Origin: an uncultured Lachnospiraceae bacterium
Lineage (GTDB): Bacteria; Bacillota; Clostridia; Lachnospirales; Lachnospiraceae
Direction of reading: 5' to 3'
DNA length: 64,000 nt
NCBI GenBank assembly: GCA_949155905.1
Contig: CASCWU010000003.1
Coordinates: 1 to 64,000, forward strand
This document shows, in pieces, positions 2,293 to 55,766 of this stretch. Every line of letters begins with the position of its first letter. Within the stretch, counting starts at the first letter, position 1. The translations under genes were made by a program, and so were the position numbers. The notes below the pieces were generated by a model. That model saw only the letters and a program-made list of their open reading frames with translations, searched no databases and had not been told where the DNA came from.

Positions 2293-4062
2293 TTATTTTA
2301 ACCTCTGTTCCACTTTTGTCATCACCCTGCACTTTTTCCGTTCGCAGGCAATCCCAACAAAAATGATTTTCTTCATCTCTTCCAACTCCAGTGCTTCACG
2401 GTAATGCTTTTTTTCAATCTGCTCCAAGGCTTCCAGACAACCTGCCTCCAAATCGCCTCCATCCGGGTACTTCATTTCAATCACAATTCCAATCTCTTCC
2501 TCCTCAATCTTCACCAGGATATCACTATAGCCGTCTCCTGATTCTACATTGGAGCGGACAGACCACTCCTTACGATGAGAAAGCAGCCCCAGCAGTACGC
2601 CATGATAGAAGTTTTCTTTCAGTTCCTTTCGTACCGCCGTATCCCGGATGCTGATCGTCTTTTTCAAATAAGCGGTAAACTGCTGTTCAATTCCTGCGGC
2701 ATCCCCTACACAGAGAGCGGCATACAGCGCCTCCAGCAATTCTGGCTCTTTCCCTGCTTCCCCGCGGATCCATTCCATCACCTGCTCCACAAAGATTTCC
2801 CGAATCTCCTGATTTGGAATAGCTAATTCGTAAGTATTCCTGCCTACCTGCCTTCGTTGGGTGAGATATCCGGTCATGAACATCACACTCCAGACATTTT
2901 CCGTATTCGCATATAATTCATGGTACGTCAGTTCCTGGCGAACCTCCTTTGTCACCGTACTGCCATTTACAAGCTGCTCCAGTTCCCATTTCGTACTGGA
3001 ATCTGCCGACTGGAGGAAGGTTCGGATAATCTCATTCCCGCTTGTGTTCATCCAGTAGGCCTGCGGAAATACGTCCGGATCCCGGCGTAATTCACTACAA
3101 TAGTTGATCACATCCCATGGACAGTAGACATCTACCTTTCCAAAGCAGTAACCGTCATACCACTCCTTCATTGAGGCAGATTTTTCTTCCAGGCCGTAAA
3201 ATTCCAGCATCTCCCGTACCTCATGGTCAAGAAAGCCAAAATATTCCCCAAATATCGTATTCGTAATTGAATATACCTTAAAGTTATTTAGACCAGTGAA
3301 AATGCTCTCTTTCGCCACTCTCAAGCAGCCTGTCAGCACCGCAAAAAACAGATGGTCATTTGTTTTTAAGGCCTGCCCCAACAGCCCACGGATCAAACTC
3401 ACCATTTCTTCATAATATCCCGCCCGTTCCGCTTTATCTAACGGTACGTCATACTCGTCAACCAGAAGGATCACTTTCTGTTTGTAATGCTTACATAGAA
3501 GCTCACACAAAGTTTTCAAGCTTCCTTCTAATACATCCTGGGACATCAAAAAACCTGGTTCTTCTCCTTTTCCCATTGTTATGAGCCTGGTATATTGCTC
3601 TTTTTCCTTCTCTGTTAGCTGTTCGCTCTTCATTAAAAATTGAAAGCGCAATGCTTCATTCCCCATCACCGAGCAAAGCTTCTCTCCGGCGTTCTGAAAA
3701 TTCCTCGCTTCTACTCCCTTCAAGGTAATCGAAATCACCGGGAATTTCCCCATATACTTCTCACATAGCTCTGTTTCTCCTGCAATCTCCAGCCCTTCAA
3801 ATAAGCTGGCATCGCACCCATATTCAAAAAAATGCTTGAGCATACTCATATTGAGCGACTTTCCAAACCGCCTTGGCCGGGTAAATAAGTTCACTTTCCC
3901 CCAATCCTGAAGCAGATCCCGAATAAGCCCAGTCTTATCTACATAGAAAAACCCTTCTTTACGAATCTCCTCAAAATTCTCAATTCCGACCGGCAGCTTC
4001 ACCCACTTTTTATCTGCTCGCTTCTTCTCTATAAAATATTCTTTTTGTCTCTTCCCTTCCAT
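2293..4062 (-). CDS. AAA-ATPase-like protein with C-terminal PD-(D/E)XK nuclease domain
   Basis: 589 residues, full length for the AAA-ATPase_like plus DUF1703-type nuclease architecture. Visible motifs are RPRRFGKS at residues 62-69 (P-loop-like), KVILLVDEYDVPL at about 196-208 (Walker B), a helical middle, and the nuclease core with Asp514 in YSDIL and Glu529-x-Lys531 in VIEMKY. Biochemical function of the family is not established; it is often multicopy in gut anaerobes. ATG at 4062 has GGAGGG seven bases upstream. It is a close paralogue of the partial gene at 1-710; both the coding sequence around the P-loop and the promoter are shared, pointing to recent duplication. It appears to be a single-gene transcript. 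Confidence 0.9.
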   Translation of the reverse strand: MEGKRQKEYFIEKKRADKKWVKLPVGIENFEEIRKEGFFYVDKTGLIRDLLQDWGKVNLFTRPRRFGKSLNMSMLKHFFEYGCDASLFEGLEIAGETELCEKYMGKFPVISITLKGVEARNFQNAGEKLCSVMGNEALRFQFLMKSEQLTEKEKEQYTRLITMGKGEEPGFLMSQDVLEGSLKTLCELLCKHYKQKVILLVDEYDVPLDKAERAGYYEEMVSLIRGLLGQALKTNDHLFFAVLTGCLRVAKESIFTGLNNFKVYSITNTIFGEYFGFLDHEVREMLEFYGLEEKSASMKEWYDGYCFGKVDVYCPWDVINYCSELRRDPDVFPQAYWMNTSGNEIIRTFLQSADSSTKWELEQLVNGSTVTKEVRQELTYHELYANTENVWSVMFMTGYLTQRRQVGRNTYELAIPNQEIREIFVEQVMEWIRGEAGKEPELLEALYAALCVGDAAGIEQQFTAYLKKTISIRDTAVRKELKENFYHGVLLGLLSHRKEWSVRSNVESGDGYSDILVKIEEEEIGIVIEMKYPDGGDLEAGCLEALEQIEKKHYREALELEEMKKIIFVGIACERKKCRVMTKVEQRLK

Positions 4063-4121
4063 ATCCTGGCCCTCCTATTCCACCATTTGTCCTCTCTTCC
4101 CTGTCTTTCCTATCTGACTAT

Positions 4122-4150
4122 AGTATAGCGAAAAAACCGGAAACTGTAAA
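4122..4150 (-). promoter_or_regulatory. Sigma70-type promoter of the ATPase/nuclease gene
   Basis: TTTACA (4150-4145), 17-base spacer, TATACT (4127-4122) on the minus strand, 60 bases ahead of the ATG at 4062. Identical hexamers and spacing to the promoter at 789-817. Confidence 0.75.
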
Positions 4151-4187
4151 GCAAGACCTCCTGCCAGAAAAATACCTTTAAACGACA

Positions 4188-4233
4188 AAAAAGCGTTTTA
4201 CCTATCCTATTTCAGACAAGTAAAACGCTTTTC
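4188..4233 (-). terminator. Rho-independent terminator after the Ig-flavodoxin gene
   Basis: Inverted repeat AAAAGCGTTTTAC / GTAAAACGCTTTT with a loop of about 19 bases, followed on the minus strand by a run of six T. It sits 15 bases beyond the stop codon at 4248. Confidence 0.8.
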
Positions 4234-4247
4234 TATTCCCAGGGCTC

Positions 4248-5162
4248 TTAGTTTCCCAGACTCAGGCCTGCTATCCATTCCTCTATGGTTGCTTTTGACA
4301 CATCTCCGCTAAAACGACGCCCTTCTTTTACCTCCGGGCTGCCGGAGGCAATGTCTTTGATATGGCTGACCGCAGTACTGATGCCGCTGCCTCCCGAAGT
4401 ACAAAACGGTACAATGATTTTCCTGGAGCAATCATAGCTTTCTAAAAAGGTATCAATAATCCGCGGCTCCTCTCCCCACCAAATCGGAAAGCCCAGATAG
4501 ATTACCTCATAATCACCAAACTTTTCGACACTTCCTTCTATACCCGGACGCGCCGAAGCACTCTGCTGTTCCTGATTTGCCCGGCAGGAATCGTTGTTAT
4601 AATCCAGATCTGCCGCAGTATATGGATCGCTCGGTGTTATCTCATAAAGCTCTGCCCCTGTTACGTCTGCAATAACCTCTGCTACACCCTTTGTTGTGTT
4701 CGTTGCAGAAAAATAAGCTACCAAAGCCTTCTTTGTACCGCTATCCTGTGTGGCGGAGCCTGAGGCCGTATCCTTTGTCACCTTCACCTTACATGTCACC
4801 TTCTTACTTTTGTATCCCTCCGCCCGGACAGTCACGCTTATCGTAGACGTTCCCTCTTTTTTTGCCTTCAGTTTTCCGTTTTTATTTACAGACACGACAG
4901 AAGGCTTGGAGGATTTATAGGTGACAGTCTTTTCCGCCAGCTTAGGCGAGGTGCTTATCTTTATTTTAGCTGTTTTTCCCTCCTTCATAGACACTGTAGT
5001 TCCATTCGCTTTTTTGCTTCCGATTTTCATCGTTACTGTTTTGATTGTTTTTCCAGAAGCCGCCTGAACTGCCTGGATAGAAAAAACAGCGGTACATACG
5101 AGGAAAAGCGCCAGCGCCCATTTCCATAGGAATCTCTTACACGGATTTTTTTGATTCAACAA
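4248..5162 (-). CDS. Secreted Ig-like (Big_2) flavodoxin
   Basis: 304 residues. A basic N-terminus, a hydrophobic stretch ALALFLVCTAVFSIQAVQAA ending in an AxA cleavage site and no lipobox Cys predict export. Residues about 38-130 form a Big_2-type Ig domain (KTAKIKISTSPKL, SSKPSVVSVNKNGKLKAKKEG, ISVTV). Residues about 145-304 form a flavodoxin fold: KALVAYFSATNTTKGVAEVIAD supplies the phosphate-binding loop, then VIYLGFPIWWGEEPRIIDTFL and IVPFCTSGGSGI. Such flavodoxins bind FMN and carry electrons; an exported one suggests an extracytoplasmic redox role, which is inference. The start is TTG at 5162 or the next TTG, both downstream of a GAGG site. Followed by a clear terminator. Confidence 0.85.
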   Translation of the reverse strand: MLNQKNPCKRFLWKWALALFLVCTAVFSIQAVQAASGKTIKTVTMKIGSKKANGTTVSMKEGKTAKIKISTSPKLAEKTVTYKSSKPSVVSVNKNGKLKAKKEGTSTISVTVRAEGYKSKKVTCKVKVTKDTASGSATQDSGTKKALVAYFSATNTTKGVAEVIADVTGAELYEITPSDPYTAADLDYNNDSCRANQEQQSASARPGIEGSVEKFGDYEVIYLGFPIWWGEEPRIIDTFLESYDCSRKIIVPFCTSGGSGISTAVSHIKDIASGSPEVKEGRRFSGDVSKATIEEWIAGLSLGN

Positions 5163-5276
5163 CTTAACCTCATCCCTTCTTTTATTTATTTGGCTCGCTT
5201 CCAGGTTATTGTACTATCTGTATATCAAAATGTCCAATACCTAATGCTAATGTTTTTCTATGCCTTTTAGGTATGG

Positions 5277-7478
5277 CTATTTGTTTTTCTCTGTCCTTTG
5301 TTTCTCCTGTTCCTTTGACATTTTCTTATACTCCCCTGGCGTCATCCCCAGTGATTTCCGAAACAAACGGTTTAATGGCTGTGCATCGTAAAAACCAACC
5401 AGTTCCGCCACCTCCTTGACGCTGTAATCCTGATCTGCTGCCAAAAGCTCTTTTGCCCGTTCAAATCGCTGCTGATTAATATATTCCAAAAGTCCATAGC
5501 CCTTCCAACGCTTAAACTGCTTGGAAAGCGTAGAAATATTCTGGCCGTACTGCTCTGCAATCGCGCCAACTGTCAACTGTGCTTCTCCATAATGCGCTTG
5601 AATATACAAAGCAATTTCCTCTATCTGCTGTTCGGTTATCTCTTTACTGCTTTGAGGCTCTTTTTGCGGCAACTCTGCCGACATCCCGGCAATCAACTCG
5701 GAAAACCTCGCTACCGCTTCCTTGATTTGGTGTCTTTCCAATACTTGCAGCAGCTCCTCACCCTGCTTTCTCCAGCCATTCTCCCCTTCCAGGCTTACCT
5801 TGGAAAAACATAAGCTGGCACTGTATTCCTTTGGATTCCAGCTGCGATACTCCAATAACTCACTGATATCCCGATAACACTGCGGCAACCCTTCCAGACC
5901 ATAGTGCCGACGACTGATGCAGACCGCAAGCTCCATAGAATAATACTGTGAAAAAAACAGTTTCAATTCCTCTGCCAATTTCAAAAAAATCTGCCCTACT
6001 TCCTCCTCTTCTATCTCCTCCGGTACATTAACGACAGAAAAAATGATCCCTTCTGTCTCTGCCTCTACCGATGGGTAAAACGGCTCTATTAGTTCATGCA
6101 GCACACTTTCTACTGCAAAAACAGCCAAATCATATTCCTGTGAGGTGACGGGTTCCTTCTTTTCCCATATTTTCCCCAGTTCTAGCAGTTCAATCCCAAG
6201 CAGCACAAAACCCTTGTCATGAAAATCTGCAATCCATTCCTGTAAACGTTCCTCCCACAGCTCAGGCTTTCGATACCCCTTCAGCATAATATTCATATAG
6301 GCGTTCTGCACAGAAGTCTGATTTTCCGCCAGGGCGGAACGGCTCTGCTGATAATTCTCTAAAAGCTTCTCCACAGAGGCACGAATCTGTAAAAATTCAT
6401 CTTTATCATCTATTCCCTTTTCCTTCCCTTTGGTGACAAGCTGCAGCAGCTCCTTGACCGGAAGGTACTGCAGCTTCGCCAGATAATAAATTAAGATACC
6501 ACCGATCACGATACAGGCCGCAATATAAATAACCAACAAAAGCATCATATCATTTATTGTTTTTTGATACTCCTGTCTGGACACCTGAACCAAATAGGAT
6601 AATTCATAATCCTTAGAATCCTGCAGCAAAAAGAAATACTCCTTATCCCGCATCAGCCAGTAGGAATCCATCGCCTGTGCCTGCAAATCTCCCTGTTTCA
6701 CAAAGTTTTTTTCCTGTGCAGCCGCCTGGCGTGCCATCTGTACTGCTTTTAAAAAAGAAACATCCCCTTTTTGCTTTTTTCCTTCCTCTACTCCCATCCA
6801 TTTCCCGTCTGGAAAAAGCAAATACAGCGTTGCCTCTTCGTTTGTCACCATATTCCAGATATACGATTCATCCAAATATACAACAACACGAGCTGCCTGC
6901 TCCTCCCCTAAATGGATCGAATACAAATAAGTCAAGCGATCTCCCACCAACCTAAGCTCCCCCTGAAAAGCTTCAGCAATTAATTCTTCCCGAAATTCCT
7001 CCAAAGAACAACCAAATCGCTTTTGTTCAAATCCTCGTATATCCTTCAGGGAACTAAAAAGCTCGCTTGTAATGATGTCGTCCTGCCTCGGCAGATAGAC
7101 ATATAAATCAGAAATGACACCATTAATCAGCTTATAATTTGCAATTTGTTTTTCAATTTCTAGCACCTTTAACCTTTGCTCCGGCGTATATCCGCTGCCA
7201 TCATTCCGCTCCAGGGCTGCTACTGCTCTGGAATTTAGCAAGCTATAGCAAATCTGGTACAGACTTTCCAGTTCATTTTCCAAATAAATCTGTACGGAAT
7301 AGACTGCCTGATGCTGCAGCCGATGCACGTTTTTCTGCTCCCTTGCCAGCGCATCTCCGTAAATGATACCGCCGAACAATACCGGCAAGGCTAATACAAG
7401 CCCATAGGAAAGCATCCAGCGGTATAAGGTACTGGAAATTTTTCTGGAAATATGCCGTTTGATTGGAAATCCGGCCAT
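5277..7478 (-). CDS. Membrane-anchored AraC-family transcriptional regulator
   Basis: 733 residues from ATG 7478, which has GGAGG nine bases upstream; the longer frame to 7538 lacks a site. Layout: transmembrane segment at about 17-38, an extracytoplasmic sensor of about 240 residues, a second transmembrane segment (LLLVIYIAACIVIGGILIYY), a linker, a poorly conserved middle domain, and a C-terminal double helix-turn-helix of AraC type (LTVGAIAEQYGQNISTLSKQ and VKEVAELVGFYDAQPLNRLF, then MTPGEYKK). Proteins of this build sense carbohydrate outside the cell and activate nearby sugar-uptake genes. It is followed on the same strand order by an esterase and a sugar-binding lipoprotein, the likely targets. 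Confidence 0.88.
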   Translation of the reverse strand: MAGFPIKRHISRKISSTLYRWMLSYGLVLALPVLFGGIIYGDALAREQKNVHRLQHQAVYSVQIYLENELESLYQICYSLLNSRAVAALERNDGSGYTPEQRLKVLEIEKQIANYKLINGVISDLYVYLPRQDDIITSELFSSLKDIRGFEQKRFGCSLEEFREELIAEAFQGELRLVGDRLTYLYSIHLGEEQAARVVVYLDESYIWNMVTNEEATLYLLFPDGKWMGVEEGKKQKGDVSFLKAVQMARQAAAQEKNFVKQGDLQAQAMDSYWLMRDKEYFFLLQDSKDYELSYLVQVSRQEYQKTINDMMLLLVIYIAACIVIGGILIYYLAKLQYLPVKELLQLVTKGKEKGIDDKDEFLQIRASVEKLLENYQQSRSALAENQTSVQNAYMNIMLKGYRKPELWEERLQEWIADFHDKGFVLLGIELLELGKIWEKKEPVTSQEYDLAVFAVESVLHELIEPFYPSVEAETEGIIFSVVNVPEEIEEEEVGQIFLKLAEELKLFFSQYYSMELAVCISRRHYGLEGLPQCYRDISELLEYRSWNPKEYSASLCFSKVSLEGENGWRKQGEELLQVLERHQIKEAVARFSELIAGMSAELPQKEPQSSKEITEQQIEEIALYIQAHYGEAQLTVGAIAEQYGQNISTLSKQFKRWKGYGLLEYINQQRFERAKELLAADQDYSVKEVAELVGFYDAQPLNRLFRKSLGMTPGEYKKMSKEQEKQRTEKNK

Positions 7479-44015: not shown

Positions 44016-44546
44016 TTAATGTACCCCAAAACGCTTATCATTGCTATATCCTACACCGAATGCATCTGCATCTCCTACATTTGATGTCAAAGATCCAACA
44101 TGCCAATTTCTATTGTTCCAATTACCTCCACATGTAACGCTCCAACTATTTTCCCATGCCTCATAAAAAATGGTTGGAGTTTGCATTGTAATATCATTTG
44201 TTCCACTATATGGAACTGTAGTAGGGGTATTTGTATTTGGCATAAACTCATAAACTCCATACATTTCTAACCTTTTGTTAATCTCTTCTTTTTCTTTGCC
44301 TGATGCAAAAGTTGACTGCATCATTAGTTTTTCAATTTCCTCTAAAGATCCACGTTCAATTTTTCCAGCCTTTAAATCAGTGGAATATCGAATATCCATT
44401 TGCTGTGAAAACTCCAACTTGCTATTTGCCTCCAAATATACCTCTGCTGAACTCATAACAGAGGGAGAACTTTCTTCTGCTGAAACAGGTATTGTCATTC
44501 CCATAAAAAGAGCCGCCAAAAGAACAAATGCTACTAATTTTTTCAT
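44016..44546 (-). CDS. Secreted protein of unknown function
   Basis: 176 residues. Signal peptide KKLVAFVLLAALFMGMTIPV ending SAEE. The first part of the mature protein is helical (SLEEIEKLMMQSTFASGKEK); the C-terminal part is Asn/Thr/Trp-rich (PTIFYEAWENSWSVTCGGNW), possibly beta. AAGGAGG lies eight bases before the ATG. The C-terminus stops soon after GYSNDKRFGVH and may be shortened relative to relatives. It is co-directional with a 47-residue membrane peptide and its upstream region abuts the peptide-regulator module, whose regulator may control it. Unrecognised. Confidence 0.65.
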   Translation of the reverse strand: MKKLVAFVLLAALFMGMTIPVSAEESSPSVMSSAEVYLEANSKLEFSQQMDIRYSTDLKAGKIERGSLEEIEKLMMQSTFASGKEKEEINKRLEMYGVYEFMPNTNTPTTVPYSGTNDITMQTPTIFYEAWENSWSVTCGGNWNNRNWHVGSLTSNVGDADAFGVGYSNDKRFGVH

Positions 44547-44752
44547 TATATTATCCTCCTTGAGTAACTGGTTGTATATAGATAGAGTCGCCTATAAACT
44601 CATATGTTGATTATGCAGTTTATATCTATAAAAATTCTTTTATTTAATTTCTCTATCCTGCTCCTCTTTTCATCTCATCATCCCTCCTTTCCATCTCGTC
44701 GCACCTCCTCTCCGTTTGTTCTGCCCTCATCCTAACACATTTTTTGTCCAAA

Positions 44753-44828
44753 CAGAATGATGTTTGAAACAATTCAGAGGAAAATTGTTTCAAACGTCAT
44801 TCTGTTTCTATCCATTTTATCCTATACT
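44753..44828 (+). promoter_or_regulatory. Palindromic operator and promoter of the secreted peptide gene
   Basis: A 22-bp inverted repeat, CAGAATGATGTTTGAAACAA.. and its partner ..TTGTTTCAAACGTCATTCTG (44753-44774 and 44783-44804, one mismatch, 8-base loop), is followed after 18 bases by TATACT (44823-44828). The -35 position overlaps the palindrome end and lacks a good hexamer, as expected for an activator-dependent promoter. The copy at 54806 has the same geometry. Confidence 0.7.
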
Positions 44829-44850
44829 TAAACGCGTAGCAAATATCCAA

Positions 44851-44882
44851 GGAATTGATAAAAATCATTTTTTAACAATTCC
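44851..44882 (+). promoter_or_regulatory. Leader hairpin of the secreted peptide mRNA
   Basis: GGAATTG ... CAATTCC (44851-44857 and 44876-44882) in the 5' untranslated region. The stem is kept and extended by one G-C pair in the second copy at 54902-54933. Confidence 0.55.
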
Positions 44883-44926
44883 TTACACACGACTAAAAAT
44901 TTACTATGAAGGAGGTCATACCTACT

Positions 44927-45127
44927 ATGAAACTGAAAAAATGTCTTACTACCCTAGCCACCCTATCCCTTTCTCTAACGGTTCTTCTTCCGTTTACACC
45001 GCCGCCAGATCCAAAACCTCCGGTCGGAAACGAAGCAGAAGATCCTGCCCCTGATTCAAATCCAGACGAAAAAGAACCAGGTGCAGAACCTCAAAGCGAT
45101 AAAAATCGGCCTCCTAAACGTAAATAG
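44927..45127 (+). CDS. Secreted proline-rich propeptide (candidate signal peptide)
   Basis: 66 residues. Hydrophobic export sequence MKLKKCLTTLATLSLSLTVL then LPFTPPPDPKPP, an acidic proline-rich middle, and a basic end NRPPKRK. AAGGAGG lies 11 bases upstream of ATG 44927. A second copy at 54978 is the same length: sequence differences are mostly third-position or 6-base in-frame indels, showing selection on the protein; the final 17 residues (from EPGAEPQSDKN) are identical. It ends nine bases from the end of a convergent XRE/TPR regulator gene. Export signal, conserved C-terminus and adjacent TPR regulator fit the RRNPP scheme in which the processed tail is reimported to bind the regulator. 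No experimental support is known to me. Confidence 0.75.
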   Translation: MKLKKCLTTLATLSLSLTVLLPFTPPPDPKPPVGNEAEDPAPDSNPDEKEPGAEPQSDKNRPPKRK

Positions 45128-45135
45128 ACACCTTG

Positions 45136-47142
45136 TCAAACCCATTTTACTCCATATTTTTTTTCACAGCGTTCCTTGATAAACCGAGCGTCAGCGCTTT
45201 GTTTTGCTATGGCTGCAATCACATAACTTTCATAAAACAACGGTACACACGTTTTCTGGATTGCAGCCATATCCTGTTTCTCCTGTTCCATCTTCTGCTC
45301 CGTATTCCAGGCGATTTCATATAACAGACTACTCACCGTATAGGGTCTTTGCATCCGATAGGCAAGCGGAGGCGCTTCCTCCGCCAGTTTCAGCGCCTCC
45401 TCATATTCCCCGTCACTTCCCAGAGAATTCACCAGATTTTCCACGATCAGCAAATAGGCGGTCGCATTGTACTCCAGCTTCATTCCCTCTTCCTGATATT
45501 TCAGAACTCCCTTTTTCACCTTCTCACGGGACGATTTCCGGAATTTTACTAACTGGTTCATCGTGACATGATACCGCTTCTTTGCCTCTCTCAGCAAACG
45601 GATAGCCTCTTTCCGATCTCCTAATTTCTCAAAGGCAATCGAAATATTATTCAAAATCTCTGCCTCTATTTCTGTCAAAGGCCAGAGCCAAAGCTCGCAT
45701 TCCTCATCCACCGTCAGGTAAAATGCTTTCTGGAGCAGTTCCAGCTCCTGCTTCCGGCTGATTCTTCCCAGTTCTCCTTCTATGATCGCATAGGTACTGA
45801 TAAGATATTGCTGATTAAAAGGATTCTCCTGACCGTTTTCCAGTTCTAACTCCCTTCTTAGCTCCTTTAATACCTCTCCTGCCTCCTGGTAGCGTTGGCT
45901 GCTAATCAGCATATCTATTTTTGTTGCAAGTAAAATCAGATCATACCGTTTGGTACGGATTTTTGGATAAAAGCGGCAGGTATCCGCCCCCAGGCGTTCC
46001 AACAGCTCGGTAAAGTGCTTCAGGGAGGGCTTGCTCTCTCCCCGTTCTATCGCCCCCAGGCGTTCCGGCTCGCAAATGCCTGGACATACCTTCTCCTCTG
46101 AAAGTCCCTTGCTCAGCCGCAGGCGTAAAAGCCGCTCTCCCAACACCTGACCGCGGTAGATCATATTCAGCAAGGGGTAGAAATAACGCCGGGAGTCCCA
46201 TGGTATCGTCGGCCTTTTCAAGAAGGCCTCCAGGATCGGAATTGCCTCCCGGTATAGCTCGGGATTCTCTCCTTCTGGAACCGGAACGCCTCCCTTTTCC
46301 CATCCTGCCAAAGATAAGCGCACCAAATCTTTTAATCCATACATCCGGTGCTGCTCCCAGAGGCAGGCCAGCCCCTTCTCACAAACAGACAATTCCGCAT
46401 ACCGCTTTTCCTTTCGCAGCTCTTCCGCCAGACTTAATACCGTTTCCGGGTAAAGGTAATTCAGACGCTTTTTATCCAGAGAGCGCCTTTCTATGTAGGC
46501 AAGAATCTCCTGGTAGAGCCAAATGCCTGTCTGTAAACGATCCTGACGATCCGGATAACGTCTGCCGGATCGTCCCTGCCGACACTCTCCCTCCGCCAGC
46601 AAAATCAAAAGAGCCTGCTCCTGTTCTCCGTACAGAAAGCTTTGAATCTTCTCCAGGGAAAAACCGGGAACCGTCAGGCGAAGGAGTGCCACCAGCTCCT
46701 CCCTTCTGTCCTGCTGATCTCCCTGCTCCATCCTAAGAGCGTTTTGGATATAACCGATAAACTGCCGGTGCAGTTCTTCCTTTCCGATTCCCTGTGTGTT
46801 TTTACGTCTTTTTTTCCCCAGCGCCTCCTCAAACTCCTGTTTGTATTCCTCTAATAACTGCTCTGTGCTGCAAAAGGCGCCCTCCCGCAGCGTATAGACA
46901 ATCTCATTCCGCCGCTGCAAAAACAAATACTCTGGCAAAAAGTAAGAAATTCCATACGCTCCCAGAGAGACCCCAATCCGCTCAAACAGCACCTCCAGCG
47001 TAAAGCTGTCCGGTTCCAGATCGCCCTGCTCGAAATGACAGCAGGCGGCCGTATCGTACAGTCCATAGCAAACCAGCGTCCGTTTTAAGTTCTGCAGTTC
47101 TCGAATCCATTTAAAGATTGCCCCCATGGAAATATGGTTCAT
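45136..47142 (-). CDS. RRNPP-like regulator: XRE helix-turn-helix with TPR repeats
   Basis: About 668 residues from ATG 47142; a TTG at 47154 also opens the frame and neither has an ideal site. The N-terminus (IRELQNLKRTLVCYGLYDTA, then FTLEVLFERIGVSLG) looks like a divergent XRE domain; a second, clearer XRE-type segment, VLGERLLRLRLSKGLSEEKV then RLGAIERGESKPSLKHFTEL, lies near residue 340. The C-terminal half is TPR-like helices (EAGEVLKELRRELELENGQE, AEILNNISIAFEKLGDRKEA, EEALKLAEEAPPLAYRM). Soluble. This is the architecture of peptide-sensing regulators such as Rgg, PlcR and PrgX. It converges with a secreted peptide gene. Partial copies occur at 49562-49805 and 55184-55345. Confidence 0.75.
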   Translation of the reverse strand: MNHISMGAIFKWIRELQNLKRTLVCYGLYDTAACCHFEQGDLEPDSFTLEVLFERIGVSLGAYGISYFLPEYLFLQRRNEIVYTLREGAFCSTEQLLEEYKQEFEEALGKKRRKNTQGIGKEELHRQFIGYIQNALRMEQGDQQDRREELVALLRLTVPGFSLEKIQSFLYGEQEQALLILLAEGECRQGRSGRRYPDRQDRLQTGIWLYQEILAYIERRSLDKKRLNYLYPETVLSLAEELRKEKRYAELSVCEKGLACLWEQHRMYGLKDLVRLSLAGWEKGGVPVPEGENPELYREAIPILEAFLKRPTIPWDSRRYFYPLLNMIYRGQVLGERLLRLRLSKGLSEEKVCPGICEPERLGAIERGESKPSLKHFTELLERLGADTCRFYPKIRTKRYDLILLATKIDMLISSQRYQEAGEVLKELRRELELENGQENPFNQQYLISTYAIIEGELGRISRKQELELLQKAFYLTVDEECELWLWPLTEIEAEILNNISIAFEKLGDRKEAIRLLREAKKRYHVTMNQLVKFRKSSREKVKKGVLKYQEEGMKLEYNATAYLLIVENLVNSLGSDGEYEEALKLAEEAPPLAYRMQRPYTVSSLLYEIAWNTEQKMEQEKQDMAAIQKTCVPLFYESYVIAAIAKQSADARFIKERCEKKYGVKWV

Positions 47143-47277
47143 CCAGTTATACAATTCCTCCAGTTATCCAGCCTCTTGTGCTTTTTCTTTTTCTCGTTGT
47201 ATCTTTGCGACAGGTAAGAACGCCCTCCGCCTTTCTGTTATGTAATGCCTTTTATTCTACATTTTACCATATAGAAT

Positions 47278-47438
47278 GATTAGGGTGTCAAAAGGTATTC
47301 AAGCAATGAATTGTAGTTATTGTTTGTAAATTGTTTGTGATATCCTTTCAAAACCGGAGAATTTTTCTATTGATTTCAGGTAAAATTCTCATACAATTAA
47401 AACAACTCCAGAGAGCAGTACCTTTTGACACCCTAATC
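47278..47438. mobile_element. 161-bp MITE with 20-bp inverted ends
   Basis: GATTAGGGTGTCAAAAGGTA (47278-47297) and its exact reverse complement (47419-47438) bound a non-coding AT-rich element. It is flanked on both sides by ATAGAAT (47271-47277 and 47439-47445), a 7-bp target duplication. No gene inside. It sits just upstream of the regulator gene. Confidence 0.85.
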
Positions 47439-47504
47439 ATAGAATACGAGGTTTCAAGAACAAACGCAAATCTGCACAAGATAAACATATGGAATCATTT
47501 AGAT

Positions 47505-48620: not shown

Positions 48621-49436
48621 TTAATTTAATTTGGGTATATAGGAGTTGTTTTGACAAGGATAAGCTAGTCTACTAAAATATCCCATACGATCATTGCCAT
48701 TTTCTACTCCAGATAAAACGCCATATAGTTGACGTGTGCCATCTCCCTTAATGTACCATACAGGACCACCACTATCTCCTCCTTTAGCTATTGTAATACT
48801 TGAGTTCATGAATGAAGTCAGTCCTAATATTTTTGTAAGCTCATATGTAACTGGAGTATTAAAATTCATAACAGTTCCTGCGGTTAAACCTGTAACGGCA
48901 CCATATTTATAAACTATTCTGCCCTCAAACAGTTGATAATCATCTCCACTATATATAGAACTAATTTTACCCGTTGTAGTAGTATTCAGACGAATTAAAT
49001 TTGTAAGAACATTTTGCCCCGTATGTAACAATCCATAATCTCCATTTTGATGATCTGCAAATTGGATAATTGGATTCATTCCTGGAAGAACTGTATTGTT
49101 GCCAGCAGGATTGTTAGGTTGGTAATATAATTCTTTTGTAGTTTTTAATACATGACCTGCTGTTAATACACAATTCATACGTGTTCCCATTTCTGTTAAA
49201 TAAGTTCCGCAAAAACCAATTGTACCCCATTGCTCTAATTTATTACCATTTAAAATATATAAGGAATCTCCACCAATTAAAGATACTGTAGGTTCTGGGT
49301 ATTTATTGGTTATATGAAAACGTATATAAGGAGATATATTATTCTTATATTCTGAAAAAGAGATTTCATTTATTATTTCAGAATATTCAGGAAATATAGC
49401 ATTCAGTTGTCAATTTTCAAATAGCATCTTGTTCAT
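48621..49436 (-). pseudogene. Trypsin-like serine protease, N-terminus lost
   Basis: The catalytic triad region is intact: His in VLTAGH, Asp in NGDYGLLH and Ser in GGDSGGPVW. The same frame continues upstream through EYSEIINEISFSEYKNNISP but meets TGA at 49410-49412; ATG at 49436 reads only MNKMLFEN before it. No signal peptide remains, and about 125 bases further on a fragment of the XRE/TPR regulator begins. A secreted protease of this class would be exported, so this copy is probably inactive, although internal starts such as ATG 49190 could still make a cytoplasmic fragment. Confidence 0.7.
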
Positions 49437-49561
49437 TAAGGCTCTAAGAAGTTATTTTATCGCCTTCTCTTTCTACATATAGAACAAGTAAATAATATAT
49501 TTTGTGACTATCATATACCTTCAGGAAATCTGTAATTGATTGGCTAACTGAAGCAGATCTT

Positions 49562-49805
49562 TCTCGAAATGACAGCAGGCGGCCGAATCGTACAGTCCAT
49601 AGCAAACCAGTGTCCGTTTTAAGTTCTGCAGTTCTCGAATCCATTTAAAGATTGCCCCCATGGAAATATGGTTCATCCAGTTATACAATTCCTCCCGTTA
49701 TCCAGCCTTTTGTGCTTTTTCTTTTTCTCGTTGTATCTTTGCGGCAGGTAAGAACGCCCTCCGCCTTTCTGTTATGTAATGCCTTTCATTCTACATTTTA
49801 CCATA
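49562..49805 (-). pseudogene. 5' remnant of a second XRE/TPR regulator
   Basis: Nearly identical to 47028-47275, the first 38 codons and upstream sequence of the intact regulator (start equivalent at 49676; MNHISMGAIFKWIRELQNLK). Identity stops sharply at about 49562, where protease-side sequence begins, and at 49805, where the IS begins. Only the N-terminal helix-turn-helix part survives. Confidence 0.85.
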
Positions 49806-51129
49806 CTTGAGAGTGAAAAGTTTATAGCACTAAGAAGCCAGGAAATCCTCATAGATTTTTGACTTATCCTGCTTTTCCTGAATTATTTGTGTTATACGTA
49901 ATTCCGGCCTTTTCCCTAAAAGTCGAAAAAAATGGTAGCAAAACGCCCCAATCTGCTGTTTCAGCTCCCGGAAGGTACACTCAATCCGAAACTGGTAGCT
50001 GTATAACCGGAGGATGGTAAGGGGATCCAGTCCCAGGCTGGTACTGACTAAAATACTTTGGATCCCATTCCACTCTACCAATACAAAACGGAGTTCCTGG
50101 TAGAGTTGCTGGTGCCAGAGAAGATCCACACAGTAATAATGGACGGTTTCTTTCTTCCCATACAGTTCCATCCTGGCTTCCTGGAACTGTTCTTTCCGAG
50201 AGGAAAACAGTTCCTTCAGGTGGAGTGTTGCCCCTTTTTTCCTGGGACGTCCCCTGCCAGGCTGTTTCGCCGTTGGTTTCTCATAGGCGACACAAGATTT
50301 TTTGGCTTTCGTCACCAGCTCCAGGGTATGGCCTCCGTTTTGGAAGGAAGCCAGTGTTTCCAGGGCTGGCCGACTCAGGAAATACCGATCTAAGAGCAAC
50401 AGAGAATCCCCGAATACTTGGGTGGCCCGGCAGGCATCCTCGAGCATCTGCACTACATGGGAGGAACTATGGATAGAAGGGCTCCACTTCTTTGCAGCCT
50501 GAAGGCCATCGTGGAGCCGGATGCTTAACGGGACACAAGCCCAATGCCCGACGCTTCCTGCCAGGATACCAAGGCCGCCAAACAGATGGCCATGGATGTA
50601 CTCTGGTTTGGCAGAGTTTTCGGATTCCTGGAACAACTTTTTTATCCCTGGCATCCGGCGGCCTTCCTTGGATTGCTTGACCCCATCCCCGACCAGGACA
50701 TAGCGGTTCCCTTCCTGGTAAAGGGGAAGGAATTCTTTGGCAGTCTGGAACCAACGCTGCCGTAGCTGCTCCAAAGACCAGGAGGAAGCCCGGAAAAAGT
50801 GCAGCATGGAGTGGTAACAGCCAGGATCCAGGGCCAGATCCCGGATAATAGAGGTAAGCCCCAATTGATCGGAACGGAGCAGGAAGCCAAGGACAATGGT
50901 CACAAACCAGTGGAAGGAAGCCTTCCGGGAAAAACAGGATGCAAAGGAAGCGAATAAATTTTCGATAAAAGATAGCATTATGATATGGTAAACCACGGGA
51001 AAGTGTGCTATACTGATTACTAGAATAACTCTTTCGGTGGTTTGTCTCCTTTCTAGTTTCGCAACTTTAAGGATACCACAAAATCATAAGAAAGGGTTAT
51101 TCTTTTTTTGAAAACTTTTAACTCTCAAG
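49806..51129. mobile_element. Insertion sequence, about 1.3 kb
   Basis: Ends CTTGAGAGTGAAAAGTTT (left, 49806-49823) and CTTGAGAGTTAAAAGTTT (right end read inward, 51129-51112), 18 bp with one mismatch, enclose one transposase gene. A subterminal pair of GAATAACTCTTTC-type and GAAAGGGTTATTC-type arms lies near 51023 and 51090. No target duplication is recognised; flanking bases differ. The right end supplies the last codons of the gene at 51118. Confidence 0.8.
49830..50978 (-). CDS. DDE transposase of the IS (IS4/IS701-like)
   Basis: 382 residues from ATG 50978 (GTG at 50996 also opens the frame; neither has a clear site). DDE elements: GDGVKQSKEGRRMPG (first Asp), LLLDRYFLSRPALETL (second Asp), and YQFRIECTFRELKQQIGAFC (Glu, YREK-like). 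It has a HTH-like start and GRGRPRKKGA linker. The region after YHFFRLLG is shorter than I expect from larger relatives and may carry a deletion. Transposition mechanism is cut-and-paste by the family. Moderately GC-rich compared with the DNA around it. Confidence 0.82.
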   Translation of the reverse strand: MLSFIENLFASFASCFSRKASFHWFVTIVLGFLLRSDQLGLTSIIRDLALDPGCYHSMLHFFRASSWSLEQLRQRWFQTAKEFLPLYQEGNRYVLVGDGVKQSKEGRRMPGIKKLFQESENSAKPEYIHGHLFGGLGILAGSVGHWACVPLSIRLHDGLQAAKKWSPSIHSSSHVVQMLEDACRATQVFGDSLLLLDRYFLSRPALETLASFQNGGHTLELVTKAKKSCVAYEKPTAKQPGRGRPRKKGATLHLKELFSSRKEQFQEARMELYGKKETVHYYCVDLLWHQQLYQELRFVLVEWNGIQSILVSTSLGLDPLTILRLYSYQFRIECTFRELKQQIGAFCYHFFRLLGKRPELRITQIIQEKQDKSKIYEDFLAS

Positions 51130-53689: not shown

Positions 53690-54319
53690 TTAGCTTTTCG
53701 GTTCTTCCAGACAGGCTCGGATCGCCTCGCAATATTCCTCCAGAGATATTTCTGTTGTGTAATATGGCTTCTCTTCTGCCTCTATCTCCTGAGCGACCGT
53801 TTCAAAGGGAAGAATATAACTCCCTACCTGAATTTGTTGATTTTCATCTACGATGAACAAAGCCAGTGGTGCGATTAATTTATTTGTTTCGTTTAAAAAA
53901 ATTAATATTTCCTCTCCTTTTTGTAGTTCATGAATATCGGTACAAATATAGATTGTGTCTTCTGTTTCCCCTCCTTCTTCCTCATAAATTACGGTTTCGG
54001 CATCCGGATCTCCTTTTATACAATCCAATACCTGGATTTCTACTTCTCGATAATAGATTTTACTTATTTTTTCTCCTTCTGGAGTTTCCACATCATAATA
54101 TTTCGTATCACTTTTGGTATTTACTATACCATGAACAATCGTGGTAGCCGCTTCTACTGCCTCCTCCAAATTATACCTTCTCCACATCCCAGTGGTTTTA
54201 ATGATAGTCTTTTCAACAGTTTCTTCTGATTTTTGGCTGCATCCAGCTAACATAACTATAAGTAATAAAAAAAGTACTGTTGCTGTTTTTTCATTTTCAT
54301 ACCTCTCCCTTCTAATCAT
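53690..54319 (-). CDS. Lipoprotein with displaced start
   Basis: 209 residues with lipobox LAGC in VLFLLLIVMLAGCSQKSEET. The natural start would be MKMKKTATVLF, but the A-run there is one base short, so ATGAAAATGAAAAAA reads into another frame; an upstream ATG at 54319 (MIRRERYENEKTATVLF) keeps translation. The mature part has NLEEAVEAATTIVHGIVNTK, EVEIQVLDCIKGDPDAETVI, EEILIFLNETNK and VGSYILPFETVAQ. It overlaps the end of the metalloprotease frame by eight bases. Shares a fold pattern with the protein at 51118. Surface location; unknown function. Confidence 0.65.
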   Translation of the reverse strand: MIRRERYENEKTATVLFLLLIVMLAGCSQKSEETVEKTIIKTTGMWRRYNLEEAVEAATTIVHGIVNTKSDTKYYDVETPEGEKISKIYYREVEIQVLDCIKGDPDAETVIYEEEGGETEDTIYICTDIHELQKGEEILIFLNETNKLIAPLALFIVDENQQIQVGSYILPFETVAQEIEAEEKPYYTTEISLEEYCEAIRACLEEPKS

Positions 54320-54745
54320 ATATTATAATGTAAGAAGCTGTGTCATATTCTTGAAAAGTTCTTTTTATGTGACCAGGACTTACATATGGATTCATTACAT
54401 TACTCTCACATGTTTTGCTAAAGCATGGTGGCTCACTACCATCTTCATGACAATGTGCAACTCCTAACATATGTCCAAGTTCATGAAGTACCACTGTCTG
54501 AATATCATAACATCCCGGTGAATACCCTACAGACCATTTCTCTGTAGACGCCAAATGAATTGTAGCACCTAAAATTTCATCCCCTCGAAGGATATGTTCG
54601 GTATAGCCTATTTTAGGAAAAGAATAATTACTATAAATTACACGACTATCTGTAGCTCCTGTGGTTAGATAGAGGGAAACTATACTTTTCCCTTTGGTGT
54701 CACGCACTTTATTCCACTGTTGCATAGCAGCTCGCACTGCTTCCC
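54312..54745 (-). pseudogene. Metzincin-type zinc protease, N-terminus lost
   Basis: Catalytic motif HELGHMLGVAHCHE (HExxHxxGxxH) and the Met-turn-like SNVMNPY are present, preceded by AVRAAMQQWNKVRDTKG. Upstream of about 54745 the sequence becomes the flank of the peptide module, so the signal peptide and propeptide are missing; the apparent longer frame up to 54851 runs through the palindrome there and is an artefact. A secreted matrixin-like peptidase before truncation. Its stop overlaps the start of the lipoprotein gene at 54319. Confidence 0.7.
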
Positions 54746-54805
54746 ATCTCGTCGCACCTCCCTTCCGTTTGTTCTGCCCCCATCCTACCACAATCCCCAC
54801 TAAAG

Positions 54806-54879
54806 CAGAATGACGTTTGAAACAATATTCTGGAATTGTTTCAAACGTCATTCTGTTTCCTCCTATTTTACCGTATAAT
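54806..54879 (+). promoter_or_regulatory. Palindromic operator and promoter of the second peptide gene
   Basis: Perfect 21-bp inverted repeat CAGAATGACGTTTGAAACAA.. / ..TTGTTTCAAACGTCATTCTG (54806-54826 and 54835-54855, 8-base loop), then 18 bases, then TATAAT (54874-54879). Same geometry as 44753-44828, though the spacer and loop bases differ. Confidence 0.72.
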
Positions 54880-54977: not shown

Positions 54978-55178
54978 ATGAAACTGAAAAAGTACCTTAC
55001 TACCGTAGCCACCTTATCACTTTCCCTGGCGGTTCTTCTCCCTTTTACCCCGCCGCCGGAACCGGATCCAAAACCGCCGGTTGAAAACGAAACGGAAGAT
55101 CCTGCACCTGATTCAAACAAAGAGGAACCAGGTGCAGAACCGCAAAGTGATAAAAATCGGCCTCCGAAACGTAAATAA
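54978..55178 (+). CDS. Second secreted proline-rich propeptide
   Basis: 66 residues: MKLKKYLTTVATLSLSLAVL LPFTPPPEP, an acidic proline-rich centre and the same basic end. GGAGG lies nine bases before the ATG. Compared with 44927-45127, the frame is kept despite many changes, and the C-terminal 17 residues from EPGAEPQSDKN are identical. The neighbouring regulator is reduced to a C-terminal stub at 55184-55345, so this peptide could act only on the intact regulator at 45136 or on nothing. Confidence in coding is high because of the two-copy comparison. Confidence 0.75.
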   Translation: MKLKKYLTTVATLSLSLAVLLPFTPPPEPDPKPPVENETEDPAPDSNKEEPGAEPQSDKNRPPKRK

Positions 55179-55183
55179 ACACC

Positions 55184-55345
55184 TTGTCAAATCCATTTTA
55201 CCTTATATTTTTTTTCACAACGCTCTTTGATAAACATAGCGTCAACGCTTTGTTTTGCTATGGCTGCAATCACATAACTTTTTATAACGATGATACACAT
55301 TTTTTCCGGATTGCAGCCATACCCTTCTTCATTTTCTGGATCTGC
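55184..55345 (-). pseudogene. C-terminal stub of a second XRE/TPR regulator
   Basis: Matches 45136-45300 of the intact regulator: AIAKQSVDAMFIKERCEKKY then KVKWI and TGA. One base is missing relative to the intact gene near 55295, so the frame is broken, and homology fades at about 55345 near the VapC stop. Not expressed as a regulator. Confidence 0.85.
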
Positions 55346-55355
55346 CCAGGAAAGT

Positions 55356-55766
55356 TCAAAAAGTGGAATCCACCCAATTTTCCAATTCTAAACCTGGTAC
55401 GCGTTCAAACTCCCGAATGTTATTTGTAACAAGAATCAGTCCTTCGGCTCTGGCGTGTCCGACAATTAACATATCAAGTGGTTCAATCGGTGTACCACGC
55501 TTTTGCAAATATGTCCGAATTTCCCCATACGCCGATGCTGCAGCTGCCTCAAAGGGAAGAATACTTAATGGGAGCAAAAACTTTAATAACGACTGTTCAT
55601 TTTGGGGCGGATTAAAGCTGTTTTTGATGATATACTCTAATTCTGCCAGAGTAATTGCCGAAACACATATCCCATTATCTAATTCTTTCTTAAATCGCTC
55701 TAAGACCTTTTCTGGCTTGTTTTTCATTACATAAATACAAATATTGGTATCTAGCATATATGTCAT
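55356..55766 (-). CDS. vapC: VapC-type PIN toxin
   Basis: 136 residues. PIN nuclease: YMLDTNICIYVMKNKP with Asp6, Glu42 in AELEYI, Asp98 in EPLDMLIVGHA, and VTNNIREFERV with the C-terminal acidic site. VapC cuts RNA, usually initiator tRNA or 23S rRNA, unless VapB binds. Its ATG overlaps the antitoxin stop by four bases (ATGA). The stop lies next to the regulator stub. Toxin sequence looks intact. Confidence 0.9.
   Translation of the reverse strand: MTYMLDTNICIYVMKNKPEKVLERFKKELDNGICVSAITLAELEYIIKNSFNPPQNEQSLLKFLLPLSILPFEAAAASAYGEIRTYLQKRGTPIEPLDMLIVGHARAEGLILVTNNIREFERVPGLELENWVDSTF

Follow-up and report, generated by a model that had tools for sequence, protein, structure and literature searches.

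A putative PlcR-branch peptide signaling module with a double-unit receptor in an uncultured Lachnospiraceae bacterium

The locus and its propeptide gene

Our question at this locus was whether a short gene for an exported peptide, ending almost against the end of an opposing regulator gene, might encode the signal to which that regulator responds. The source genome, that of an uncultured Lachnospiraceae bacterium, comprises 3.57 Mb in 175 contigs, and the window (the whole 64,000-nt stretch analyzed here) is from contig C3. In it a 66-residue propeptide gene (44927-45127, + strand) converges on a gene for a 668-residue receptor (45136-47142, - strand), with 8 nt between the two. A first-pass annotation of this DNA had proposed an RRNPP-like communication module, and most of that proposal is supported below by sequence homology, by how the genes are paired, by the signal sequence and by the contact residues and operator; in our reading the gene pair is probably a peptide quorum-sensing module of RRNPP type, in the PlcR branch, with autoinduction.

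The peptide gene itself held up on inspection. Its ORF is preceded by an AGGAGG box at 44910-44915, and its product starts with MKLKKCLTTLATLSLSLTVLLPF, which is K-rich and then hydrophobic; the layout is a Sec-type signal followed by the Pro-rich TPPPDPKPP, an acidic linker and a polar tail, GAEPQSDKNRPPKRK. At 66 residues, with a signal sequence and a distance of 8 nt, it falls within the bounds by which RRNPP propeptides are recognized (10-100 residues, -60 to 400 nt). A Pfam search with the propeptide returned no match, and NCBIfam returned nothing useful for either the propeptide or the 668-residue regulator. There were four homologous propeptide copies elsewhere in the genome. Between the window propeptide and the second copy (54978-55178, +; 89% identical, with the same tail) we counted 6 changes at the first codon position, 2 at the second and 18 at the third, and we consider the ORF truly coding because dN was 0.05 against a dS of 0.57 (dN/dS ~0.09). 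Third-position changes dominate among the propeptides in general (dN/dS ~0.09-0.4), which indicates purifying selection, and different genera have all retained the signal sequence, the RBS and the frame.

These constraints bear on a different explanation of the convergent gene, namely that it works through RNA antisense to the receptor mRNA and that its ORF is incidental. The stop codons overlap or nearly do so in most loci (the commonest gap being -3 nt, an overlap of the stops), and therefore the transcripts must meet; against this, a kept signal sequence, RBS and frame, together with third-position bias and low dN/dS, are features of a protein-coding gene, and we regard a purely antisense role as very improbable. 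Antisense interplay may exist on top of a peptide function.

The first-pass annotation had also treated the basic end NRPPKRK as a conserved signal, a claim that we dropped for the family as tails differ elsewhere: the motif is common only to the second copy and, in part (RPPK), to the C19 paralogue. Across the family what the tails share is weak, a [PT]-x-[SND]-D motif that lies 10-18 residues before the end. The second copy, identified from homology, dN/dS and operator comparison, is an orphan; it retains an intact operator and purifying selection, though of its own receptor there is just a C-terminal remnant (55190-55363, -; 57% identical), and the surviving window receptor may serve both propeptides. 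Two other paralogous peptides had irregular starts. In that of C25 (L026:3450-3631) an A-run immediately follows the start codon, and there the start and the rest of the ORF fall into different frames, perhaps through slippage, phase variation or an error of assembly. The C2 frame (L029:3402-3593) has an RBS, but none of ATG, GTG or TTG stands where its start would be expected.

A receptor of two PlcR-like units

The regulator had been described as a large protein with two XRE-like segments and TPR-like C-terminal helices. Both HTHs were supported by profiles and AlphaFold; the description as simply large needed amending, as from sequence and predicted fold the protein is two fused PlcR-like HTH-TPR units. 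The first unit contains HTH 1 (residues 6-55; 46978-47127, -), apparent from AlphaFold helices and from matches to Rgg2, PrgX and ComR profiles, and TPR-like array 1 (residues 69-308; 46219-46938, -). The second contains HTH 2 (residues 334-383; 45994-46143, -), apparent from HTH_3 (E 3.4e-4) and a PlcR alignment, and TPR-like array 2 (residues 400-663; 45154-45945, -), which we presume to be the peptide-binding half. In a Pfam search the whole protein matched TPR_10 (1.8e-7) and HTH_3, the latter below its cut-off, both in the C-terminal part. Profile-profile comparison aligned the N half with the C half over 295 columns (probability 100, E 4.4e-44). With a profile of 24 relatives the C half matched PlcR over its full length (E 4.4e-20), and the N half matched Rgg2 (4e-6), PlcR (8.5e-5) and also PrgX and ComR. 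The suggested check of the regulator by HMM search thus gave TPR and HTH domains as well as homology to reference receptors, and where the first-pass annotation had known of no described system that fits, these matches instead point to a divergent RRNPP branch close to PlcR.

The predicted fold was confident (mean pLDDT 83.9 for the whole receptor and 89.2 for the N half alone), and the top solved-structure match, whether we searched with the whole model or with only the N half, was PlcR bound to PapR7 and DNA. Foldseek gave 2.8e-7 for the whole model and 5.1e-5 for the N half, and VIA-align gave Z 17.7 with an rmsd of 10.3 over 270 residues and Z 18.0 with an rmsd of 7.8 over 238 residues, respectively. 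For the N half PlcR was ~3 Z units ahead of the next family, a lead that matters because helical repeats readily yield middling structure-match scores.

An HTH ahead of each TPR array and a C-terminal TPR domain are as found in RRNPP transcription factors. At 668 residues the receptor lies outside the 250-500 residues that RRNPP_detector applies as a detection rule, which we treated as a search rule and not a functional criterion; each half (~330 residues) and the split or single-unit relatives (~300-350 residues) lie within it. Since the PlcR subfamily has one PlcR-type unit and there are two fused here, we class the receptor, on homology, as a relative of PlcR and do not file it as PlcR. In a large RRNPP survey the validated receptors were 285-473 residues long and those searched for were 250-500 (PMC10075063), and fused receptors are probably absent from that survey because 668 residues exceeds the rule.

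The two halves differ in residues expected to contact a peptide. Asparagines N498 and N569 of the receptor, which with N443 lie in array 2, align with N159 and N201 of PlcR, and RNPP receptors in general conserve an Asn at a TPR position of this kind, where it holds the peptide backbone (PMC3601957). Of the 24 relatives, 22 retain N498 and 23 retain N569, and the equivalent positions of the N half are mostly leucine, so that array 1 is without the peptide-contacting Asn. In a larger set of 51, aligned more loosely, N498 was kept in 22 and N569 in 27; the conservation in the C half is firm in the closer set of 24 only. We infer from these alignments that the peptide is read by the C half, with the N half as a ligand-blind partner.

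Receptors and peptides are paired across the family

The source genome holds about nine receptors of this family, and a convergent, signal-bearing short ORF was present at the 3' end of nearly all those not cut by a contig end. Scanning the opposite strand for such ORFs up to 600 nt from receptor 3' ends, in this and related genomes, we found one at 40 of 73 receptor genes versus 3 of 174 control genes, and any of three other positions around the same 73 receptors had a peptide ORF in only 1-2. Some of the 33 relatives without a peptide by this strict scan are at contig ends, and some peptides are frame-broken. A scan of named genomes returned no loci with three close paralogues as query and 29 with an outside-clade query; 17 of these had the convergent peptide, including loci in Anaerocolumna aminovalerica, Velocimicrobium porci and Roseburia hominis An869. 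The same arrangement was seen in 13 of 22 members of a further set drawn mostly from other families of the order (the 73-, 29- and 22-member sets share some members). The expectation that homologues of the regulator would neighbor exported peptides tail to tail was therefore borne out. In one locus (L103) two tandem full-length fused receptors (2992-4962 and 5212-7188, 69% identical) have in common a single convergent propeptide.

Relatives of the receptor occur in three forms: as one fused gene, as two overlapping genes with one for each half (L114, L117, L123 and L135), and as single ~300-residue units matching one half, the last being the usual form in other families of the order. We infer an order of events in which the fused form derives from a single unit via a two-gene pair. 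Judged from these homologues, the fused, multi-channel convergent system spans Lachnospiraceae and related families of the order. Searches of IMG/VR and plasmids with the receptor family found no match and a phage search found one weak partial match (26% identity over 27% of the query), and for this reason we do not present the system as one of mobile elements. Lachnospiraceae are unnamed in the main text of the large RRNPP survey (PMC10075063), and in the open-access literature we found no paper joining RRNPP with Lachnospiraceae and no description of a fused RRNPP receptor. The fused receptor and its Lachnospiraceae-wide family thus appear undescribed in the open-access literature searched; single-unit relatives may already be listed somewhere, e.g., in supplementary tables.

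Pairing also speaks to whether the peptide could be a secreted effector or structural peptide under the control of a receptor that senses another ligand. For an RRNPP propeptide its Pro-rich and acidic middle is long (those validated have 21-50 residues; PMC10075063), and peptides of the family adjoin secreted products and RiPP genes, as an effector might. However, the peptides adjoin receptors whatever the output genes are, the receptor family is peptide-binding by homology with its contact asparagines kept, and the ~16-residue tails vary with the receptor while the signal parts do not. For 43 pairs receptor similarity correlated with the last 16 peptide residues (Mantel rho 0.15, p 0.002, a weak correlation computed without correction for shared ancestry) and not with the first 28 (rho 0.01, p 0.42). 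We consider the effector explanation improbable, and keep to the peptide as the probable ligand of its receptor.

A candidate operator between divergent promoters

The dyad that the first-pass annotation had noticed at the peptide promoter was recovered by dyad and arm searches, with a score that none of 100 shuffles of the region matched. Its distal arm, AAACAGAATGATGTTTGAAACAATT, is at 44750-44774, and its proximal arm, the reverse complement AAACAGAATGACGTTTGAAACAATT, at 44783-44807. The proximal arm ends 15 nt upstream of a -10 element, TATACT (44823-44828, +), for which there is no -35 match (2/6), and a second -10, TGn-TAGGAT (44729-44734, -), is likewise 15 nt from its own arm on the divergent side. 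Only one further site in the genome matches the arm perfectly, at 54807-54854 in the operator of the second propeptide copy, where both arms are preserved while the spacer has changed; other matches have 3 mismatches. A large regulon for this operator was thus unsupported, there being no further close arm match in the genome.

Similar arrangements recur in the family. Dyads upstream of peptides had a median score of 15.5 versus 7.5 for other genes (p 1.5e-13), with no dyad clearly above shuffles in 12 of 55 loci. In the 37 loci with a clear dyad the distance from the proximal arm end to the best -10 had a median of 17 nt (quartiles 15-20), and 65% of them had a spacing of 13-20 nt versus 26% in shuffles; -35 boxes were no better than shuffled (5 of the 37 reached 4/6 matches, the shuffled figure being ~16%). 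The nearest upstream ORF was divergent in 36 of 49 loci, and the spacing to a mirrored -10 on the divergent side agreed within 1 nt in 25 of 35, where 6.6 were expected by permutation; these spacings were taken from symmetric arm ends, so that the test is one of symmetry about the dyad center. Arms are 17-30 nt long in the family and the gap between them is 0 to 22 nt. Their sequence differs among the paralogues of the genome; many relatives have the arm sequence CCATGACGTTTTTGGAAA, CCATGACGTTTTTGGA is common to many, and several operators contain GGACA/TGTCC. The idea that each arm is itself palindromic was unsupported (summed z 1.4, with only L103 clear).

Taken by its layout, the dyad looks like a candidate activator site serving two divergent promoters. 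The sign of regulation could be the opposite, with free receptor repressing both promoters from an operator that overlaps the -35 and imported peptide relieving this. The operator does cover the -35 position, and there are precedents among receptors: PlcR and NprR are activated by their peptides, and PrgX and Raps are inhibited by theirs (PMC3601957), and in C. acetobutylicum QsrB has its action countered by its own peptide (PMC7376267). Weighing against repression, promoters without a recognizable -35 are as expected where an activator is needed, and PlcR, the closest relative, is an activator. Repression seems to us unlikely, and activation is assumed in the mechanism proposed below.

Divergent genes and neighborhood

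The divergent gene of the window (44016-44546, -), the presumed output from its position and orientation, encodes a 176-residue protein with a signal sequence, which drew no match in Pfam, nor any in NCBIfam at E 0.001, leaving it without a homology explanation. Divergent genes vary by locus and include radical-SAM RiPP maturases, ABC transporters, EAL proteins and secreted proteins of no known family. That of C25 is a CcpM-like radical-SAM RiPP maturase (E 3e-148, just under the model cut-off), and that of C19 is a radical-SAM maturase of CXXX-repeat type that reads as two ORFs. Beside the second propeptide copy the divergent gene is matrixin-like (M10 metallopeptidase, E 2e-8; L031:2316-2852, corresponding to window 54315-54851, -); as listed this ORF overlaps the operator, and therefore its true start must be further in. 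EAL genes (c-di-GMP phosphodiesterase-like) lie divergently by different receptors at L089:5373-6230, L123:1718-2587 and L150:4172-5038, two of them confirmed and the third taken from the count of three.

A 243-nt repeat (98%), covering the receptor start and its upstream region, is found at 47029-47271 and 49563-49805, and an N-terminal remnant of a further receptor copy is at 49551-49676 (-; 90% identical). The second repeat adjoins an IS701-like transposase (49830-50996, -), and by its sequence we read it as a sign of a third, broken receptor copy. Near this broken copy there is a trypsin-like serine protease (48621-49190, -; Pfam Trypsin 6.7e-4, NCBIfam Rv1815 family 2.6e-5). Upstream of the intact receptor, inverted ends attagggtgtcaaaaggta and taccttttgacaccctaat at 47280-47440, spotted by eye only, resemble those of a small MITE.

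Proposed mechanism

We propose that the propeptide would leave the cell by the Sec route, that extracellular proteases would free a short C-terminal peptide from its variable tail, and that an oligopeptide permease would re-import it; five OppA-like binding proteins are present in the genome. The peptide would then bind the TPR groove of the C-terminal unit, with the N-terminal unit, its contact asparagines lost, as a built-in ligand-blind partner. Liganded receptor would bind the 25-bp operator arms and recruit RNA polymerase to both divergent promoters, raising the peptide gene in a positive feedback along with the divergent output gene, here that of the secreted 176-residue protein. The approximately nine paralogous receptors would be parallel channels that each have a distinct operator sequence and, in most cases, a distinct peptide tail. 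A fuller account, which we hold to be about as apt to be right as wrong, is that in Lachnospirales a single PlcR-like unit became a two-gene pair and then a fused, built-in heterodimer with one peptide-reading and one ligand-blind half, that one polypeptide occupies each long arm and the two divergent promoters are thus driven by a pair of molecules with a free gap between the arms, and that up to nine such channels per cell turn on the production of secreted proteins, c-di-GMP enzymes or antimicrobials of the RiPP class.

Lachnospiraceae are major gut bacteria. If the proposal is true, the system could explain how they coordinate antibiotic and secreted-protein production, would give a testable communication code for gut commensals, and would make short peptides a natural switch for silent radical-SAM RiPP clusters. 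The receptor would also be a naturally linked pseudo-dimer separating ligand sensing from DNA binding, in contrast to an RRNPP family otherwise studied as separate subunits.

Comparison with known systems

PlcR-PapR of the Bacillus cereus group is the nearest relative in sequence and fold, sharing an XRE and TPR regulator, an exported propeptide and, in the C half here, Asn 159/201; it differs in that our receptor has two fused units (668 versus ~285 residues) in a convergent gene pair, with operator arms of 17-30 nt mirroring two divergent promoters and many paralogous channels per genome. The Rgg/SHP pairs of streptococcal RaS-RiPP clusters likewise have an RRNPP receptor with radical-SAM RiPP genes and a peptide gene as neighbors (PMC13361665, PMC8092268). 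However, SHPs are short and hydrophobic, whereas in the propeptides here a Sec-type signal is combined with a polar tail (polar/basic in the window, where the 66-residue propeptide also has an acidic linker), and the receptor here is of a different, usually fused branch. Clostridium acetobutylicum has several parallel RRNPP pairs in one genome, as seen here, with eight Qsr/Qsp systems (PMC7376267), but its receptors are single units (survey range 285-473 residues, PMC10075063) and its precursors are 39-50 residues, nearly all Trp-ending, with ORFs described downstream of the regulator. ComR/ComS, finally, resembles our system in having an XRE-TPR activator of its own peptide gene and in the pseudo-palindromic 20-bp ComR box with an inner GACA/TGTC (PMC5131891), to be compared with the GGACA/TGTCC of several operators here; its receptor is an unfused single unit in a different genetic layout.
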